A stretch of 64,000 nt of DNA from Leucobacter sp. CX169 (GTDB lineage: Bacteria > Actinomycetota > Actinomycetes > Actinomycetales > Microbacteriaceae). The stretch lies in NCBI RefSeq assembly GCF_017161405.1, contig NZ_CP071051.1, positions 186,001-250,000 on the forward strand. The letters are read 5' to 3'. This document shows, piece after piece, positions 6,166 to 55,275 of the stretch. Made by a program: the position numbers and the translations under genes. Numbering within the stretch: the first letter of the stretch is position 1; every line of letters begins with the position of its first letter. Under the pieces are notes generated by a model. That model made no database searches, had not been told where the DNA came from, and saw nothing but the letters and a program-made list of their open reading frames with translations.

Positions 6166-7188
6166 GTGGGGCGCACACTCAAGAACACCGACCGCAGGAT
6201 CCACGCAAGGCGCGTGCTGACCGCGCTCGCCGCAGGCGCAGCACTCGCCCTGACCGCGTGCACCAGCGCGGCAGATGTCAATACCAACGCTGCAGGGAGC
6301 GACGCGGTCGCGGCGCCGACCTCGAAGAAGATTGCGTTCGATTACCCATTCACCTCGCTCGCCTTGTACTCGAGCCTCGTCGACATGATGACTGAGCGGG
6401 CCGAGGAGCTCGGGTACACGGTCGTGACCACCGATGACCAGGCCAGCCTCGACAAGCAGATCACCAACCTGAACGGGCTGGCGACCTCGGACGTCGCGGC
6501 GGTCGTGTCGTTTCCGATGGAACCTGCCGCGGTGACCAACATCATGACCCAGATGCAGGGCAAGGGCATCAAATGGGTGACCTACGGAACGCACATTGAC
6601 GGCGAGGACGGCTCGATTGACTTCGCCGGTGAAGCGACTGCACGGGCACAGGTCGAAGCCTTCGTCGCCTGGGCTGCGGAAAACGACGTGCAGTCCGGGA
6701 CCGTCCTGCTGACCGTGTTTGAAAACGACGACCTTGGCCGGAGCCGGTCCGTAGGCATGCGCGAGGCGATGGCAGAGCTTGCCCCGCAATTCACGGTCGT
6801 GGAACAGTCCGCGGCGAACTCCGAGGACGGGCTGGCAGCGGGCCGCGCTGAGCTCGCGAAGAACCCGGACCTGGTCGGCGCGCTCGGTCTGAACGACGAT
6901 GCGACCCTCGGGCTTGCGCAGGCGAGCAAGGAATTTGGCAAGGTGCCGAGCGACGTGTTCTATCTCGGGGGAAACGATGGTTCACCTCAGGTGCTGGAGA
7001 TGATGCAGCGTGGTGACTCCGTCATTCGCTCGACGATCGCACTGGATACGGCAGCCACCGGCCGTGCGCTTGCGGAAATGCCTATCGAGCTCATCGAGGG
7101 AACCGGGCCGGGCACCTTCGTTGCGAAGTTCGAGCTGGTCACCGCAGGAAGCCCCGAGCTGGACAAGTTGCTCGGCGCGGCCAGCTAG
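6166..7188 (+). CDS. Sugar-type ABC transporter substrate-binding lipoprotein
   Basis: 340 aa from the GTG at 6166, chosen because GGAGG lies 5 nt upstream; an ATG 12 bp earlier lacks a ribosome-binding site. A signal peptide with lipobox LTAC (Cys about residue 32) would anchor it outside the membrane. The rest is a periplasmic-binding-protein-like domain of the ribose/galactose type (Peripla_BP_4), with GLNDDATLG and LGGNDGSP segments typical of the fold. It heads an operon with an RbsA-like ATPase and RbsC-like permease. The downstream amidase suggests the ligand may be an amide rather than a simple sugar; that is inference. Confidence 0.88.
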   Translation: MGRTLKNTDRRIHARRVLTALAAGAALALTACTSAADVNTNAAGSDAVAAPTSKKIAFDYPFTSLALYSSLVDMMTERAEELGYTVVTTDDQASLDKQITNLNGLATSDVAAVVSFPMEPAAVTNIMTQMQGKGIKWVTYGTHIDGEDGSIDFAGEATARAQVEAFVAWAAENDVQSGTVLLTVFENDDLGRSRSVGMREAMAELAPQFTVVEQSAANSEDGLAAGRAELAKNPDLVGALGLNDDATLGLAQASKEFGKVPSDVFYLGGNDGSPQVLEMMQRGDSVIRSTIALDTAATGRALAEMPIELIEGTGPGTFVAKFELVTAGSPELDKLLGAAS

Positions 7189-47614: not shown

Positions 47615-50494
47615 CTAGGAGACCTCGCCCTGCCCCTCGCGTCCCGTTGCCTCGCACCTCATTGCCTCGTTCAGACGAGCCCGCTTGGCGCGGTGCAGGA
47701 ACAGCAGTCCACCCGCCGCAAGGAGCAACGCCGCGATGGCCGCGATACCGGTGATCTCGGCGCCGGTCGCCGCAAGGCCGTTGCCCTGCGTCCCGGATCC
47801 CGAGCCGCTTCCGCCCGCACCAGAATCCCCGCCACCCGGCATCTCTGCCGCGACGACGGTGAGTGGGTGAGACAGCTCCGTGCCATCCGCGCGGGTCACG
47901 TACACCCGGTGCTCGCCCGCCGTCACATCGGCAGGAACGGTCACCGTCGCCGAGAGCGCACCCGTGGCGTCCGCCCGGGCGGTGCCCAGCGGGGTCGGGG
48001 TCGAGCGCAGCTCGAAGGCGAGCTCCTCGTCGGCGATGAATCCGCTGCCCGCGATGGTGATCTGCTCACCCGCGGTGACGCTCGCCGCGCTCAACACGAT
48101 CTCGGCAGGGGCTGGCAGCTCAGGGTCAACCGTGGCCTCGGCAGGCAGCGGGACGTCGATGTGACGGATCTCGCTCGTGGCGCCACCCGCGCCGAACGAG
48201 TAGGCGGTCACGCGCAGGCGATCCTCGTAGAGCGCTGCGCGCAGGCCGACCGGGTCGGCGCCGCCCACGGCGGTCTCTCCCCAGTCGCCGCTCGGACCGT
48301 ACATCGTGGTCACCGCGGCGGTGTTCACGAAGGTCGGCGCGAGGGCCTGAGCCGGGTCAAAACGCTGCTCGACGCTCCAGTCGTTAAGCAGGGGCGACCA
48401 GTGCGTGTGGCTGGTGAGCAGCGTCACGTGCTGGTTGTCCGCGATGAGCGCCTCGAGGCGTGCCTGGTCGGCCCCAAACTCGTTCTTCGTGAAGTTGATG
48501 TAGGTGCCCGAGACCGAGTTCGCGAAGACATGGTGCGAGAACAGCAAGACGGGCATGTTCAGCTCGCGGTAGTGGGCGAGGCGATTGCTCAGCCACCAGA
48601 ACTGCTCGTCGCTCATCTCTACGAACGGGCCCGATCCGGTCTGCTTCGGGTAGTCGTGGAACTCGCTGCCGATCCAGAGCACGGGCAGCACGCCGTCGAT
48701 GAGCTCTTCACCCCAGAGGCCGCCCTGGCCGCCCACGTCGCGCATTTCGGTGCGATCCAGGAAGCGGTTGATGTAGTTCGCTGAGCCGCTCGAGCCGTAG
48801 AACTCGTGGTTGCCGATCGTCGAGATGCTGGTGCCGTACTCGGCCCCGCCGCCGGTCGCGAACGCGTTCAGGTATGAGTCGTACTGCGCCGTCGTCCCAT
48901 TGCTCGTGAGGTCGCCGTTCGAGACGATCGCATCAGCCTGGGGCTGCATCGCGCGGAAGCCAGGCAGCACCTGATTCTGCAGCCGGGCGTCGGCGCCCTG
49001 CACGTCGCTAAAGACGTCAACGAGCGCGCGCGCCTGGGCGTCCGCGGGCAGCGGCGCGAGCGGGCGAACCACCTGCACGTCGTCGATCATCCAGGATCCT
49101 GCCCCCGCCTCGGCAGCGAAGCCAAACTCGAAACGCACCGACGTCGCACCGGCCGGCGTGGTGAACGCGAGCCGCGGCTGGGCGGACTCCTCGCTCTGGG
49201 TACCCCACGCGCGCAGCTCAGCGCGCTCGCCCGAGTCGAAGACCGCCGTGACGTGACCGCGCTGGGCGCCGCCGCGACCCCGGTAGTGGCTGTCGAAGCG
49301 GAGCTCGAGCGCGTCACCCGCGGTGACCGCGACGGGGGCGGAGGTGAGGGCGCCGTCGAAGGGGGCCTGCGACGCCTCGGCGACCGCAATCGTGCCCGAG
49401 GCGCGGGTGAACGCGTGGCGCCGGTCAGTGCCGTAGGCCTCGACGGTCGCTGCGCGGGTGGTGAGTTCCCAGCCGTTCGCCTCCCACTCACTGGGCTGCG
49501 CCTCAAAGCCGTCGAACCACACCTGTGGTTCGGTGGTCGTGCCCGCTTGCGGGGCCGAAGTGAGTACCGTGATCTCGATCGACGCCGGCGCGATCCCGGC
49601 GCCGCTCAAGTGCAGTGGCACGGTCTCTGCGGGTTGATCGCCCGGGAGCACGACGTCGAACGAGACGGTGCCGTCGGCGGCGGCTACGGGGATCCCGGCG
49701 ACGGGAGTGCCCGTCGTTGCATCGCCGAGGGTTGCCGCGAGTTGCTGGCCCGCGCGCAACCCGCCGACGCGTACCGTCGTCGTCCCACCAGCGCTGAGCA
49801 CTGGCTTCCTTGCCGACAGGATCGCCGGGGCGACATCCGCGGGGGTGGTCTCGGAGATCGAAACGTTGTCAATCATCCAGAACCAGTTGTTGCTGCTCTG
49901 CAGGTATGACCAACCGAACTGCACGTTCTGCGCACCAGCGGGCACGTCGACGGTGTACCCGGTGGACTCGTTCAACCTCGCCGAGGAGAAGGCCGCGACC
50001 TGCACAGGCGCTCCGCCGTCGAATTTGGCGAGCAACGTCGCGGTCTGGGGCGACTGCCCCTGCTTGTAGTGGCTGTCGAAGGCGATGCGCACGGCGCCCG
50101 AGCCCACAGTGAGCGGAACCGCGGCGGTCCAGAGCGTCGAGTCGAATGTGCCGCTCGTCGGCCGATTGGTGTCGGACTGCACCACCGCCACGATGCCCTG
50201 TGCCCGACCGAACGAGCTGCGATCGCCGCCGCCGCCGAACTGCGCGACGACATCGGCTGTCGTGTGAAAGGTCCAGCCGCCCCAGTCAGGCCGCATCCCG
50301 GCGATGTTGCGATGCTCGACAGACCAACCGGCGGGTGCCGCAGTGGCCGAGGTGGAATCGAAGCCCTCCGTCATCGCGGCGGCGGCGGCCGGGCTCGCCG
50401 GGGCGATCAATGCGGCGGAGGCGAGCGCGAGGAGCACTCCGGTGGAGAGCGCCGCGGTGCGGCGGCGGTGTGAGTGTGGGGAGAGGTGTGGCAT
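47615..50494 (-). CDS. Secreted, wall-anchored metallophosphoesterase (LAxTG)
   Basis: 959 aa. Signal peptide (about 1-40), two Gly/Ser-rich beta-sandwich repeats (about 45-215 and 320-480) each ending in SWMIDDVQ-like strands, then a calcineurin-type phosphoesterase with FSDVQGAD, SNGDLTSNG, TIGNHEFYG, FSHHVF and TSHTHWSP. A beta-rich domain, a Gly/Ser linker and the sorting signal LAATG plus a hydrophobic helix and RAKRAR follow, suited to a class E sortase. About 20 residues trail beyond the basic stop, longer than usual. It lies 61 bp after the phosphonate permease gene and may share its transcript. Confidence 0.85.
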   Translation of the reverse strand: MPHLSPHSHRRRTAALSTGVLLALASAALIAPASPAAAAAMTEGFDSTSATAAPAGWSVEHRNIAGMRPDWGGWTFHTTADVVAQFGGGGDRSSFGRAQGIVAVVQSDTNRPTSGTFDSTLWTAAVPLTVGSGAVRIAFDSHYKQGQSPQTATLLAKFDGGAPVQVAAFSSARLNESTGYTVDVPAGAQNVQFGWSYLQSSNNWFWMIDNVSISETTPADVAPAILSARKPVLSAGGTTTVRVGGLRAGQQLAATLGDATTGTPVAGIPVAAADGTVSFDVVLPGDQPAETVPLHLSGAGIAPASIEITVLTSAPQAGTTTEPQVWFDGFEAQPSEWEANGWELTTRAATVEAYGTDRRHAFTRASGTIAVAEASQAPFDGALTSAPVAVTAGDALELRFDSHYRGRGGAQRGHVTAVFDSGERAELRAWGTQSEESAQPRLAFTTPAGATSVRFEFGFAAEAGAGSWMIDDVQVVRPLAPLPADAQARALVDVFSDVQGADARLQNQVLPGFRAMQPQADAIVSNGDLTSNGTTAQYDSYLNAFATGGGAEYGTSISTIGNHEFYGSSGSANYINRFLDRTEMRDVGGQGGLWGEELIDGVLPVLWIGSEFHDYPKQTGSGPFVEMSDEQFWWLSNRLAHYRELNMPVLLFSHHVFANSVSGTYINFTKNEFGADQARLEALIADNQHVTLLTSHTHWSPLLNDWSVEQRFDPAQALAPTFVNTAAVTTMYGPSGDWGETAVGGADPVGLRAALYEDRLRVTAYSFGAGGATSEIRHIDVPLPAEATVDPELPAPAEIVLSAASVTAGEQITIAGSGFIADEELAFELRSTPTPLGTARADATGALSATVTVPADVTAGEHRVYVTRADGTELSHPLTVVAAEMPGGGDSGAGGSGSGSGTQGNGLAATGAEITGIAAIAALLLAAGGLLFLHRAKRARLNEAMRCEATGREGQGEVS

Positions 50495-50555: not shown

Positions 50556-51401
50556 CTACTGCAGGCGCTTTCGGATCCAGGCCGAGGCCTGGTCCACCGC
50601 GATGATGAGCACGAGCACGATGAGCAGGTAGGTGAGCATCTCGTCGAACTGGAACGTCTTGATCGCGCGGTTGATCAGCAGCCCGATGCCGCCCGCGCCG
50701 ACGAGGCCGAGCACGAGCGACGAGCGCACGTTGACGTCGAACCGGTACAGCAGGAGGCCCGTGAGCTGCGGCAGCACGGAGGGGATCGTGGCGTTGGCGA
50801 CGACTTGCCAGCGGCTGGCGCCTGCGGTCCGCAGGGCCTGCTCGGGGCCAGGATCCACGTCCTCCATCGCTTCGGCCCAGAGCTTGCCCATCACTCCCGT
50901 GTTGTGGCAAATGAGCGCGAGCACTCCAGCGAACGGTCCGAGGCCGACGGCGGTGATGAAGATGAGGGCGAACACGATGTCCGGCACCGCGCGGAAGAAC
51001 GACAGGATTCCGCGAGCCACCTGGTAGACGAAGCGGTTGGGGGTCGTGGTGCGGGCGCCGAGTACGGCGAGCAGGAGCGCGCTCGGGATCGAGACGGTGG
51101 TGCCGATGAGGCCGATCCACAGGGTGGTGAGCGCGCCCTGAATGCCGGCGGTGACGACCTCGCCGCTCAGGTCGGGGGGGATCGCCTCGGCAAGGAAATT
51201 GAGCATCCCGCGGGCGCCCGTGACGAGCGCCTCGGGGCGAAAGTCCGTGGCCTGGAAGGCGACGGCGTGGAGCACGGCGAGCACCGCGACGATGGTGACC
51301 CAGGTTCCCGCTCGCTTCGCCGTCCGGGGGTCGCGGGGGACCGCGAGTGAGCGTGGCGGGATGCTGTGGGCAGTTCGCCCGGGCGCTGAGGTGTGGGTCA
51401 C
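50556..51401 (-). CDS. phnE: Phosphonate-type ABC transporter permease (PhnE-like)
   Basis: 281 aa from the GTG at 51401 (AAGGA upstream). Six hydrophobic helices and the PhnE-like loop LRTAGASRWQVVANATIPSV, with GLVGAGGIGLLINRAIKTF near the C terminus. Works with the PhnC-like ATPase (10 bp upstream) and PhnD-like binding protein. A run of seven G lies inside the gene at 51174-51180, but the frame is intact. Confidence 0.88.
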   Translation of the reverse strand: MTHTSAPGRTAHSIPPRSLAVPRDPRTAKRAGTWVTIVAVLAVLHAVAFQATDFRPEALVTGARGMLNFLAEAIPPDLSGEVVTAGIQGALTTLWIGLIGTTVSIPSALLLAVLGARTTTPNRFVYQVARGILSFFRAVPDIVFALIFITAVGLGPFAGVLALICHNTGVMGKLWAEAMEDVDPGPEQALRTAGASRWQVVANATIPSVLPQLTGLLLYRFDVNVRSSLVLGLVGAGGIGLLINRAIKTFQFDEMLTYLLIVLVLIIAVDQASAWIRKRLQ

Positions 51402-51411
51402 GATGGGGTCC

Positions 51412-52221
51412 TTAGAGGTACAGCGACGCGAGCTCGGCGTCGTCAATTTCGTCGGTGGGGGCGTCGAAGACGAGGCTGCCGCCGCGCAGGCCGATCACGC
51501 GATGCGCATACTTCCGAGCGAGCTGCGGCTGGTGCAGCACCGCGGCGACGCCGAGCCCCTCGGTCACGGCGAGCTCGTGCAGCAGCGACATGACGTCGTC
51601 GGCGGCGCGCGGGTCGAGCGCAGAGACGGGCTCGTCCGCGAGGATCATGCGCGGGCGCTGACAGAGCGCCCGGGCGATCGCGACGCGCTGCTGCTGGCCG
51701 CCCGACAGGCTGCCAGCACGGTCGTGCGCGCGATCGGCGAGGCCGACGCGCTCGAGGCAGGCCATGGCTTCCTCCATCAGCTCGCGCCCGAACAGCGGCG
51801 GGATCGAGCGCCACGCGGGAAGCCGTGAGAACCCGCCCGCGCACACGTTCTGGAGGGCGGTGCGCCGGGGTACGAGATGGATCTTCTGGAACACCGTCGC
51901 AGCGGTGTGACGGGCCTCGGCCCGCCGGGCCGCGCTGGCCTCGTTCAGGCGGACCCCGGCGATCGTGATGTCGCCGGAGTCCGCCTCGGTGAGTCCGTTC
52001 ACCGCGCGCAGGGTCGTCGACTTCCCCGAGCCGTTGGCTCCGAGAAAGGCGACGAGTTCGCCGGCGTGCACCCGCATGCTCATGTCGTGCAGCACCGTCC
52101 GGTCCCCAAAGCTCTTGGAGATCTGGCGCACGTCGAGCAGGACTTCCCGGGTGTCCGCGCCGCCGGCCTGGGTGGCCGGCGCGGTGGCAGCCGCGTCCCC
52201 GCGCGCGATGAGGGCGGCCAT
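51412..52221 (-). CDS. phnC: Phosphonate-type ABC transporter ATP-binding protein (PhnC-like)
   Basis: 269 aa. Walker A GANGSGKST, signature SLSGGQQQR, Walker B MILADEPVSALD and the H-loop HQP. The spacing and LVPRRTALQNVCAG segment match PhnC. Its ATG overlaps the binding-protein stop by one base (TAATG). A N-terminal extension of about 25 residues is Ala-rich and probably unstructured. Confidence 0.9.
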   Translation of the reverse strand: MAALIARGDAAATAPATQAGGADTREVLLDVRQISKSFGDRTVLHDMSMRVHAGELVAFLGANGSGKSTTLRAVNGLTEADSGDITIAGVRLNEASAARRAEARHTAATVFQKIHLVPRRTALQNVCAGGFSRLPAWRSIPPLFGRELMEEAMACLERVGLADRAHDRAGSLSGGQQQRVAIARALCQRPRMILADEPVSALDPRAADDVMSLLHELAVTEGLGVAAVLHQPQLARKYAHRVIGLRGGSLVFDAPTDEIDDAELASLYL

Positions 52222-53132
52222 TACACGTCTTCCTCGGTGAGGCCCATGGTCTTGGCCAGGTCGAACAGCGGCTGGTAGGTGTCGACGGTCACCGGGATCA
52301 GCGGTCCGGCGGGGTCGACGCCGAGGAAGGCGCTGACCTCGGCGACGTCGTCCGCGTCGAGGCTGAGCAGCGCCTCGGCGACGGCGTCCTTGAACTCCTG
52401 CGGCAGGTTGCCGCGCACCGTGATCGGGTCGTTCGGAATCTCCTCCGACTTCCAGATCTGGCGGAACGCGCTCGTATCGATCGTGCCCTCGGCCTCGGCC
52501 GTGGCGAGCGTCTGCGAGTTGATCTGAGCCGCGTCGACCGTGCCGTTGACGAGCGCCAGCAGCGCTTCGGGGTGGCCCCCGGCGTAGTCCGCGGTCACCT
52601 CGTCGGCGATACCGGCGTCGGCGAGCGCCGACATCGGGAGGGCGTCACCCGAGGTCGAGCCGGGGCTGCCGAGCGCGAGCGTGTGTCCTGGCAGGTCCTC
52701 AATCGTCTTGATGGGCGAGTCGTTCGGCACCCAAATGCCGCCCGTGTAGGTGGTGGGCTGGCCCTCTGCGTCGCCAAATGAGGCGAGCGGGACGGCGTCT
52801 GCGCGCTGGTTCGCGAACACGAAGCCGAGCGGGCCAAACTGCGCGATCTCGAGCGAGTCGTTCTCCATCGCGAGCACCTCTGCGGCGTAGTCCTCGGTGA
52901 TGATGACCTCGACGGGGCAGTCGAGCTTCTCGGACAGCGCGGTCGCGAGCACCTGGTAGGCCGGTTCGAGGCGCTCCGGATCCTCGTAGGGCAGGATCCC
53001 GAAGCGGATCTTGCCGTCGGGGCACGTTGCCGAGGCCGAGCCTGCGGCGGCCGAGTCGGCGGGCGCGCACCCGGCGAGTCCGAGGGCGAGCAGCATCGAC
53101 GCGGACAGCGCGAAGGTGGTGGACTTGTTCAC
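52221..53132 (-). CDS. phnD: Phosphonate-type ABC transporter substrate-binding lipoprotein (PhnD-like)
   Basis: 303 aa; GTG start with AAGGAG upstream. Lipobox LAGC (Cys about residue 22). The PhnD domain shows RFGILPYEDPERLEPAYQVL, EIAQFGPLGFVFAN and the binding-site segment GSPGSTSGDALP. It captures phosphonates or related organophosphorus compounds. Seven tandem GGTGT repeats sit directly upstream of the ribosome-binding site. Confidence 0.9.
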   Translation of the reverse strand: MNKSTTFALSASMLLALGLAGCAPADSAAAGSASATCPDGKIRFGILPYEDPERLEPAYQVLATALSEKLDCPVEVIITEDYAAEVLAMENDSLEIAQFGPLGFVFANQRADAVPLASFGDAEGQPTTYTGGIWVPNDSPIKTIEDLPGHTLALGSPGSTSGDALPMSALADAGIADEVTADYAGGHPEALLALVNGTVDAAQINSQTLATAEAEGTIDTSAFRQIWKSEEIPNDPITVRGNLPQEFKDAVAEALLSLDADDVAEVSAFLGVDPAGPLIPVTVDTYQPLFDLAKTMGLTEEDV

Positions 53133-53142
53133 GATTCTCCTT

Positions 53143-53177
53143 GGTGTGGTGTGGTGTGGTGTGGTGTGGTGTGGTGT
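53143..53177. repeat. Seven tandem copies of GGTGT
   Basis: A perfect pentanucleotide microsatellite, (GGTGT)7, in the 66-bp gap between the oxidase gene and phnD, ending 3 bp from the phnD ribosome-binding site. Slippage would change leader length by 5-bp steps. Confidence 0.9.
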
Positions 53178-53198
53178 TGAGTAAGAGGGAAAGAGTGG

Positions 53199-54338
53199 CT
53201 AGTGGAGGGGCGAGAGCGCCGCGACGGTGCGGGCGCCGAGCGCGAGCCCGACGGTCATGCCGACGCCCGTGCTGAGCGTGACGACGTGCACTCCCGGAAG
53301 CGGTTCGGCTGCCAGCACGTCCTGGGCGTCGCTAGCGGCGTAGACGCCCTGCCAGCGTTCGAGTACCTCGAGCTCCGGGACGCCGAGCAGTCCGGCCGCC
53401 TCGTCCAATAGCGCGCGCGTCCACTCCTCGCGGAGGAACGGGGGAGCGCTGTCGAAGTACTCGTGGGTGTCGCCGAGCAGCAGCGTTCCGTCCGGCTGGT
53501 GAGTGAACATGACGTTGGCGCCCATGGTGAGCAGTTCCGGGCGCTCTCGCTGGACGACGGCGTGCAGGGCGTCGGCCTCGGGGCCGGCGAACGCCCCGTA
53601 GCGCAGCATTGAGGTGCCGGTGACGATCGCGGGCCCGAGCGGCAGGCTCCGCGGGGCCCGCACGCGGGTCATCTGGAGGGCGCACTCGCGCACCCTTCCT
53701 GCTTCGGCGACCTCGGGCAGGAGTCGCCCGATGAGGTGCCCAGCGGCGACCACGATGACGTCTGCCTCGATCACGCCGCGGCTGGTCGTGAGGCGGCCGG
53801 TGTCGGCCGCGAGCGCCGTCGTCGCGAAGCGGACGTCTCCGCGCTCGTGTGCCTGCACCCAGGACGCGATCCGGGCGACGGTGGTGCGCGGGTTCGCGGT
53901 GAGGTCGTTCGGAAGCAGGATCCCGCCGAGGGGCGCGTGTACCGTGCCGGCGGTGCCGAGCAGCTCGCCTGCTTCGGCGGCGGTCACGAGGCGCGAGTCC
54001 TGGGTCGTCTCGCGAGCGGCGAGCGCCTCGACAACGGCGAGCTCCTCCGCCGAGCGCGCCACCGCCAGGGTTCCGGAGACGCGTACTTCAAGGGCAGCCC
54101 GCTCGGCGAGGCGCAGCCAGATCTCGCGCGCCTCGTCCGCAAGGACGCCGAGCGATCCCGACTGTTCCGAGGTGCAGACGTGGCCGAAGTTGCGAACGCT
54201 CGCGGTCACCGCGGCGTGATCCTGCTCGACCACGGTCACCTGATAGCCGGCATCGAGAGCGGCAACGGCGTGGGCGAGGCCGATGATCCCGGCGCCGACA
54301 ATCGCCATGCGTGGAGCTGAGTTGGATGTGCTGGTCAT
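53199..54338 (-). CDS. DAO-family FAD-dependent oxidoreductase, phosphonate-associated type
   Basis: 379 aa from the ATG at 54338; an in-frame ATG at 54308 is also possible. FAD motif IVGAGIIGLAHAVAALD, then RNFGHVCTSEQSG and a C-terminal VVTLSTGVGMTVGLALGART. This fits the DAO branch that is syntenic with phosphonate transport (TIGR03364-like). It would oxidise an amino- or N-methylaminophosphonate imported by the downstream PhnDCE system. No phosphonatase gene is visible in the window, so the carbon-phosphorus cleavage step must be elsewhere. No good ribosome-binding site was found. Confidence 0.78.
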   Translation of the reverse strand: MTSTSNSAPRMAIVGAGIIGLAHAVAALDAGYQVTVVEQDHAAVTASVRNFGHVCTSEQSGSLGVLADEAREIWLRLAERAALEVRVSGTLAVARSAEELAVVEALAARETTQDSRLVTAAEAGELLGTAGTVHAPLGGILLPNDLTANPRTTVARIASWVQAHERGDVRFATTALAADTGRLTTSRGVIEADVIVVAAGHLIGRLLPEVAEAGRVRECALQMTRVRAPRSLPLGPAIVTGTSMLRYGAFAGPEADALHAVVQRERPELLTMGANVMFTHQPDGTLLLGDTHEYFDSAPPFLREEWTRALLDEAAGLLGVPELEVLERWQGVYAASDAQDVLAAEPLPGVHVVTLSTGVGMTVGLALGARTVAALSPLH

Positions 54339-54357
54339 GGTTCGAGCATGCGGGCCC

Positions 54358-54379
54358 AAAAGTAGTCATGACAACTTTT
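54358..54379. promoter_or_regulatory. 22-bp near-perfect palindrome, candidate GntR operator
   Basis: Arms AAAAGT and ACTTTT flank a central GTCATGAC, with a single mismatched pair. It lies 20 bp upstream of the oxidase start and shares GACAACTT with the second site at 54476-54492. Confidence 0.55.
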
Positions 54380-54475
54380 CGCGCCGCTGTTTTGCGACCG
54401 TACACGCAGCGCCGATTTGGACGCCAGTTGCTCACAAACTGTTCACTTTCGGCCCCCAGAACGAGGGCAAAACCA

Positions 54476-54492
54476 GTACAGACAACTTGTAC
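54476..54492. promoter_or_regulatory. Palindrome GTACA-N7-TGTAC at the GntR gene promoter
   Basis: GTACAGACAACTTGTAC overlaps a -10-like TACGCT (54490-54495). The ATG at 54502 follows only 6 nt later, so the transcript is probably leaderless and autoregulated. Confidence 0.5.
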
Positions 54493-54501
54493 GCTGTGGC
54501 C

Positions 54502-55275
54502 ATGAACCCGAAGCAGCCGCTGCACGCGCAGCTCTACGACGCGATGTTTCAGCGCATTCGCTCGGGTGCGTGGCGGCCCGGCGACCGTGTGCCGAGCGAG
54601 AAGTCGTTGGTCGAGGAGTTCGGGACGTCGCGGGGGCCAGTGCGCCAGGCCCTTGCCTCCCTGCGCGCCGAGGGAATGATTGGCGGCGGCCGCGGCGCCC
54701 CGCCCCGGGTGCAGCGCCCGGTGCCCTCTCAATCGTTCGGGAGTTTCCTCTCGTTCACCGAGTGGGCGAACGCGTCGGGGTTCACCCCGGGTCAGCGCGT
54801 CATCGAGGCGGCCCGGCGGCCGGCGACCGAGGAGGTCGCGCTGCACCTGGGGGTGCGGCCGGACGACCCGATCATCGAGATCGTGCGGCTGCGCACCCTC
54901 GACGGGGCACCCGCGCTGCTCGAGCGATCCGCCTTCCCGCACGAGGTCGGGCTCAGCCTCCTCACCGCCGACCTCGACGCCGGCAGCATTTATCGCCACC
55001 TCGCCGAGCGGCAGATCGTGCCGGTACGGGCTCGCCACGTCATCGACGCCGTCGCGGCGCACGCACTCGATGCCGAGTGGCTGCGCGTCGCGCCGGGCTC
55101 GCCGCTGCTGCGCGCGCGCCGGGTGTCCTATGACCAGCAAGGCTCGGTGATCGAGTTCGCTGACGACCGCCACCTGCCCCGCATGACCACGTTCGTCATC
55201 GAGAACACCGCAACCCACCGCACACCCCTGGTCCGGGAATCAACCGGGCCCACAGCGATCGCTGCTGCGAGCTAA
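54502..55275 (+). CDS. GntR-family regulator (HutC/PhnF type)
   Basis: 257 aa. Winged helix at residues 5-70 (VPSEKSLVEEFGTSRGPVRQ, ASLRAEGMI) and a UTRA ligand domain (about 90-245). It is divergent from the oxidase-PhnDCE operon, and two palindromes sharing GACAACTT lie between them. It most likely represses the organophosphorus genes until the substrate is present. Confidence 0.88.
   Translation: MNPKQPLHAQLYDAMFQRIRSGAWRPGDRVPSEKSLVEEFGTSRGPVRQALASLRAEGMIGGGRGAPPRVQRPVPSQSFGSFLSFTEWANASGFTPGQRVIEAARRPATEEVALHLGVRPDDPIIEIVRLRTLDGAPALLERSAFPHEVGLSLLTADLDAGSIYRHLAERQIVPVRARHVIDAVAAHALDAEWLRVAPGSPLLRARRVSYDQQGSVIEFADDRHLPRMTTFVIENTATHRTPLVRESTGPTAIAAAS

Follow-up and report, generated by a model that had tools for sequence, protein, structure and literature searches.

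A perfect (GGTGT)7 microsatellite beside the phnD ribosome-binding site, in a leader whose predicted openness and CA-rich make-up are mostly conserved

The (GGTGT)7 array upstream of a phnD-like gene is a genuine microsatellite. It is the extreme form of an open, CA-rich leader that is mostly conserved, and it belongs to a modest pattern across the family Microbacteriaceae. With confidence somewhat above even, we read it as an expansion by slippage, specific to one lineage, inside a leader conserved as G-poor and CA-rich, where it would serve as an unstructured ribosome standby or enhancer stretch. The window, meaning the whole 64,000-nt stretch analysed here, corresponds to bases 186001–250000 of a single-contig 2.94-Mb genome, and its phnD had its best match in Leucobacter.

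The array and the importer locus

The original prediction described a seven-copy perfect GGTGT repeat in the 66-bp gap between an oxidase gene and phnD, and both elements were borne out. The (GGTGT)7 array is perfect and lies on the + strand at 53143–53177, reading as (ACACC)7 on the coding (−) strand. TRF placed it at 53142–53177 (period 5, 7.2 copies, 100% match, score 72), at the top of 59 rows for the window. It occupies slightly more than half of the gap between the oxidase stop and the phnD start (53133–53198). To place it in the genome, we used a 464-kb sample composed of the window and 20 stretches of 20 kb each, one of which was picked because it held a second ACACC site. This sample contained 13 perfect arrays (unit of 1–9 nt, at least 3 copies, at least 14 nt), of which the present one was the longest at 36 nt; the runner-up measured 22 nt. 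The features of the locus are as follows.

53143–53177, − strand: (ACACC)7 in the coding sense, a G-free leader directly 5′ of the Shine–Dalgarno sequence (SD) (sequence, TRF)
53137–53142, − strand: SD AAGGAG of phnD, adjoining the array (sequence; conserved in orthologs)
53112–53140, − strand: predicted weak hairpin in which GGAG and the GUG start pair to early codons (RNA folding)
52221–53132, − strand: PhnD-like phosphonate-type substrate-binding protein, GTG start (PF12974, E 3.4e-59)
53199–54338, − strand: FAD oxidoreductase of the TIGR03364 family, the upstream gene (profile match)
51412–52221, − strand: PhnC-like ATPase, below the TIGR02315 cut-off
50556–51446, − strand: PhnE permease, above the TIGR01097 cut-off
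54502–55275, + strand: divergent GntR/UTRA regulator, likely start at 54502 (ORF from 54283)

In the mRNA sense, (ACACC)7 runs without interruption into AAGGAG-AAUC-GUG. The array therefore does adjoin the phnD ribosome-binding site as first proposed, though not at the 3 bp given then: the 3′ end of the ACACC run is 0 nt from AAGGAG (53142–53137), or 2 nt from GGAG when the shorter motif is counted. The GTG start at 53132 is credible because AAGGAG(A/C)A(C/T)C-GTGAA is conserved among Leucobacter leaders, being present in 15 of the 18 compared.

The PhnD-like protein scored above the TIGR01098 cut-off and below that of TIGR03431 (PhnD), and a lipobox-like LAGC was seen by eye near its N-terminus. 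Since both PhnD and PhnC score below the NCBIfam equivalog cut-offs, the substrate of this locus (50556–55275, comprising the TIGR03364 oxidoreductase, PhnDCE and the divergent GntR/UTRA regulator) may not be a classic phosphonate. The open reading frame of the TIGR03364 oxidoreductase extends to 54359 (TTG), with an in-frame ATG at 54338. A scan of 53050–54600 confined to the consensus of sigma-70-type promoters and terminators gave no match, and within that scope a promoter or terminator in the gap was set aside. The array therefore probably lies inside the oxidase-phnDCE mRNA, and phnDCE would be co-transcribed with the oxidase. Directly downstream of phnE, at 47615–50494 (− strand), the window encodes a large metallophosphoesterase-domain protein, in which an LAVTG-type sortase-signal model matched near the C-terminus below its cut-off.

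Ortholog leaders and predicted folding

A single scan returned 29 loci with a phnD relative, and 27 leaders were compared (18 from Leucobacter, 2 from Mycetocola and 7 others). The two loci left out were L024, whose leader equals that of L023, and L034, a partial match with the start lying outside it. Of five further loci (L039–L043), L039 alone was new, the others duplicating L014, L020, L021 and L023. By eye, a tandem array was absent from all 28 distinct ortholog leaders (the 27 plus L039, all from other species), and conservation of the array among orthologs was rejected. The leaders were mostly poor in G. In the 30 nt before the SD there was no G here, a median of 3 in the 27 orthologs and 8.5 in 98 background leaders of this genome (orthologs vs. 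background, p 8e-13, a value that ignores relatedness and so overstates independence). Folding gave the same order, with the leader unpaired at a probability of 0.99 here, an ortholog median of 0.67 (n = 27) and a background median of 0.41 across 97 genes (p 2e-13, with the same overstatement of independence). The background starts came from a simple home-made gene caller that assigned an SD in 161 of 355 genes and yielded 98 usable leaders, and they represent this one genome, whereas the orthologs come from other genomes. The SD itself was not predicted to be more open in the orthologs than in the background (folding, p 0.97).

In silico, then, the phnD leader is open and unpaired where it adjoins the SD, and openness is kept as a property among the 27 orthologs. 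Second only to this genome as a DNA match within the family, L039 has a G count that runs counter to the rule of G-poor leaders: 7 Gs in 30 nt, near background, although its leader is predicted to be 0.60 unpaired. Because the array was seen in none of the 28 ortholog leaders while the leaders are mostly G-poor and open, what appears to be conserved is the open CA-rich stretch before the SD, mostly poor in G, and not the array. The array itself has the appearance of such a CA-rich pre-SD leader lengthened by slippage. Two Leucobacter leaders (L008 and L009) end in CCCCACACC-AAGGAG, and this end is a plausible seed for the expansion.

The effect of copy number was explored by folding the leader with 0–14 copies. 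The array remained ~99% unpaired throughout, and the unpaired probability of the SD rose smoothly from 0.25 to 0.37, without any switch. At phnD as it stands, the SD is unpaired at 0.34 and the start at 0.04, with pairing predicted to early codons. The suggestion that changes in copy number could alter mRNA structure thus found little backing, and a fold-altering repeat was set aside. Nor did the proposed change in spacing hold up: the array sits 5′ of the SD, so copy number affects neither the SD-to-start distance nor the reading frames, and an SD-spacing switch was set aside. Taken alone, the folding model gives the array little effect, since added length is predicted to open the SD only a little; the argument for standby binding would rest instead on kinetics.

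ACACC arrays across Microbacteriaceae

Just two sites in this genome carry at least three in-phase ACACC copies. The second, a 19-nt array matching (ACACC)3 (L006:1485–1540, C1:1688487 region), immediately precedes the GGAGG-ATG of a gene of the PHP/DNA polymerase III alpha type, possibly the error-prone DnaE2. Among 398 genomes of the family, this one included, (ACACC)4 (20 nt) was found in four, with one site apiece. The 13-nt ACACC core was found in 47 of the 398 at 55 places, or 54 once a place with identical flanks was dropped. Separately, genome G019 gave DNA matches at the position of the repeat (query 419–460, 86%, two places).

For each place and each strand, we asked for an SD and a start codon within 60 nt downstream of the array. 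Across all 54 core places, these were present in the sense orientation at 15 and in antisense at none. Among arrays of at least 16 nt the counts were 10/14 in sense and 0/14 in antisense, compared with 3.6% per strand at random positions in the sample of this genome; among those of 13–15 nt an SD and start followed in 5/40. Five of the 14 longer arrays (L101, L117, L071, L070, L006) were known before the rule was set; the remaining nine gave 6/9 in sense and 0/9 in antisense (binomial p 2e-7 vs. the random rate). The four longer arrays that failed did so in different ways. L141 had AAGGAG and ATG with a frame of only 57 codons, L114 lacked a clear SD for its ATG, 28 nt past the 13-nt core, the start at L070 lay 78 nt past the core, and L137 had no convincing start. 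The ten genes downstream of the others are unrelated by their domain matches: PhnD, PHP/DNA polymerase III alpha type, ROK family, acyl-CoA dehydrogenase, MFS, enoyl-CoA hydratase, peroxidase, zinc alcohol dehydrogenase, aldehyde dehydrogenase and one gene without a Pfam match.

ACACC reversed is a rotation of itself, which makes a backward-pattern control useless; arrays of AACCC, which has the same composition, and the opposite strand were used instead. At lengths of at least 16 nt, an SD and start followed 1/10 AACCC arrays vs. 10/14 ACACC arrays (Fisher p 0.0045), a comparison in which some 16–18-nt AACCC arrays were missed owing to a search pattern of 15 nt, longer than that for ACACC. 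At 19 nt and above, where both searches were complete, the counts were 6/9 for ACACC and 1/6 for AACCC (p 0.12), and over all lengths 15/54 and 2/14 (p 0.49); the AACCC places are in part homologous or adjacent (L150–L152, L155/L156 and two in L154). L154 (G113:C76, ~6482–6556), in another Microbacteriaceae genome, is a cluster of AACCC and CAGCT-type arrays that lacked an SD and start codon within 60 nt. On these sequence comparisons, the pre-SD placement and sense orientation of ACACC arrays are firm. The data no more than suggest that ACACC stands apart from other CA units in these respects, because the contrast with AACCC was non-significant at 19 nt and above and over all lengths. Together, the open ortholog leaders and the sense-strand pre-SD arrays in other genera suggest that the site beside the ribosome-binding site matters. 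Literature searches on such repeats, conducted mostly at title level, returned no ACACC leader arrays in Microbacteriaceae, which is a weak negative.

Recurrence of this kind bears directly on the alternative that the array is a neutral microsatellite, a freely varying CA-rich spacer expanded by slippage with the effect of any open leader. Its absence from 28 distinct ortholog leaders would fit that account, as would its seven identical copies, which are expected of a recent expansion. So would the repair genes: the genome has NucS and gave no match to MutS_I, and NucS is reported to be unable to correct indels (PMC8228993). Given these repair genes, slippage products of the array may persist, and a change in its length is plausible. 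The review that describes NucS also raises the possibility that most short indels are kept down by the proofreading of the polymerase (PMC8228993), which counts against fast slippage. A neutral origin does not lead one to expect ACACC before the SD of unrelated genes in the sense orientation only (10 vs. 0 at 16 nt or more), nor AACCC arrays to share that placement in just one of ten cases, and we consider it unlikely, although it is the most serious of the alternatives.

Possible roles and known systems

Our preferred reading is the open standby or enhancer leader. In it, slippage would have expanded ACACC in one lineage, within a leader that was already G-poor and CA-rich. The resulting (ACACC)7 RNA is G-free and predicted to be unfolded, and this open stretch beside the phnD SD would offer a landing or standby site for the 30S subunit, next to an SD and start codon predicted to be partly paired with early codons. 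Within the oxidase-phnDCE operon, translation of the binding protein would then start independently and at a high level, with copy number at most grading expression and not switching it. From the folding model, we infer that an open 30S landing stretch is the simplest function.

A bolder extension, which we regard as speculative, is that selection has made ACACC arrays a recurring part of Microbacteriaceae leaders: G-free and placed before an SD, they could slip in length where MutS does not repair indels and so provide an evolvable translation rheostat for metabolic genes. For the phnD array itself, copy number might act as a rheostat. If the wider idea were true, the rheostat would serve metabolic genes and not the on/off switching of surface antigens. 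Repeats before ribosome-binding sites are usually treated as phase-variation devices of pathogens; here, a long ACACC pentamer array recurs in one orientation before ordinary metabolic genes across an actinobacterial family. Were the standby or rheostat reading true, selection for open leaders, absent indel repair and the birth of microsatellites would become linked, and expression work in high-GC Gram-positives would gain a simple leader part.

Phase variation, as raised in the original prediction, is unproven for (GGTGT)7 and not favoured. As a contingency locus, the array would tune or switch importer expression between cells through slippage of its copy number. Its position between the stop codon and the SD and its perfect 35 nt are what such a locus would show, and the copy-number-dependent 5′ UTR repeats of Moraxella uspA2 provide a precedent (PMC4679880). 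We nevertheless hold it to be improbable, as frame and SD spacing stay constant, folding with 0–14 copies gave no switch, and the gene encodes a nutrient importer and not a surface antigen. Least credible is a DNA-level element, in which the template strand GGTGTGGTGT... would fold into a two-tetrad G-quadruplex or influence transcription through a bound protein: GG tracts do recur at five-base intervals on the + strand as a putative quadruplex, but GGGTT arrays (the complement of AACCC), which are better quadruplex formers than GGTGT arrays, seldom lie before an SD (1/10 at 16 nt or more), and the placement of the arrays tracks the start codon, as an RNA leader would.

Among known systems, the ribosome standby site, a concept reportedly due to de Smit and van Duin, shares with this leader an unpaired stretch flanking an SD that is itself partly paired, both here predicted by folding. 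AC-repeat and CA-rich enhancers of E. coli resemble the present leader in their AC repeats, which occur together with a strong SD or raise expression in another way (PMC3310771, PMC4611024). In ribosome display with E. coli components, AC dinucleotide repeats were strongly correlated with GGAGG (PMC3310771), and CA repeats downstream of the start are said in a review to raise expression (PMC4611024). The same display study reports that C-rich sites are inefficient inside E. coli cells (PMC3310771), which counts against the standby or enhancer reading. Those enhancers differ in that they arose from in vitro selection or lie downstream of the start (PMC3310771, PMC4611024), whereas the array described here occurs naturally, as a pentamer repeat before an actinobacterial gene, and is a putative enhancer known from sequence.

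Like the present array, the (AGAT)n tract of Moraxella catarrhalis uspA2 precedes a gene as a tandem repeat within its mRNA leader (PMC4679880). Its copy number is reported to range from 6 to 23 between strains, with expression peaking at 18 copies in one strain (PMC4679880). Both the variation and its effect are thus reported for uspA2, whereas here the gene is a nutrient importer and the copy number comes from one genome, the searches having turned up no second strain. The TAACTGA direct repeats of marine Beggiatoaceae are likewise arrays of short units just upstream of starts, most of them pointing the same way, and a translational role has been proposed for them (PMC4679880). They number 169 sets in one genome, and most overlap or replace the SD (PMC4679880), whereas the present genome has two sites of at least three ACACC copies and the array lies 5′ of an intact SD. 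In 15 of the Beggiatoaceae cases (~10%), an SD is present as well and the repeats end 2–25 bp upstream (PMC4679880), which is the arrangement seen at phnD.
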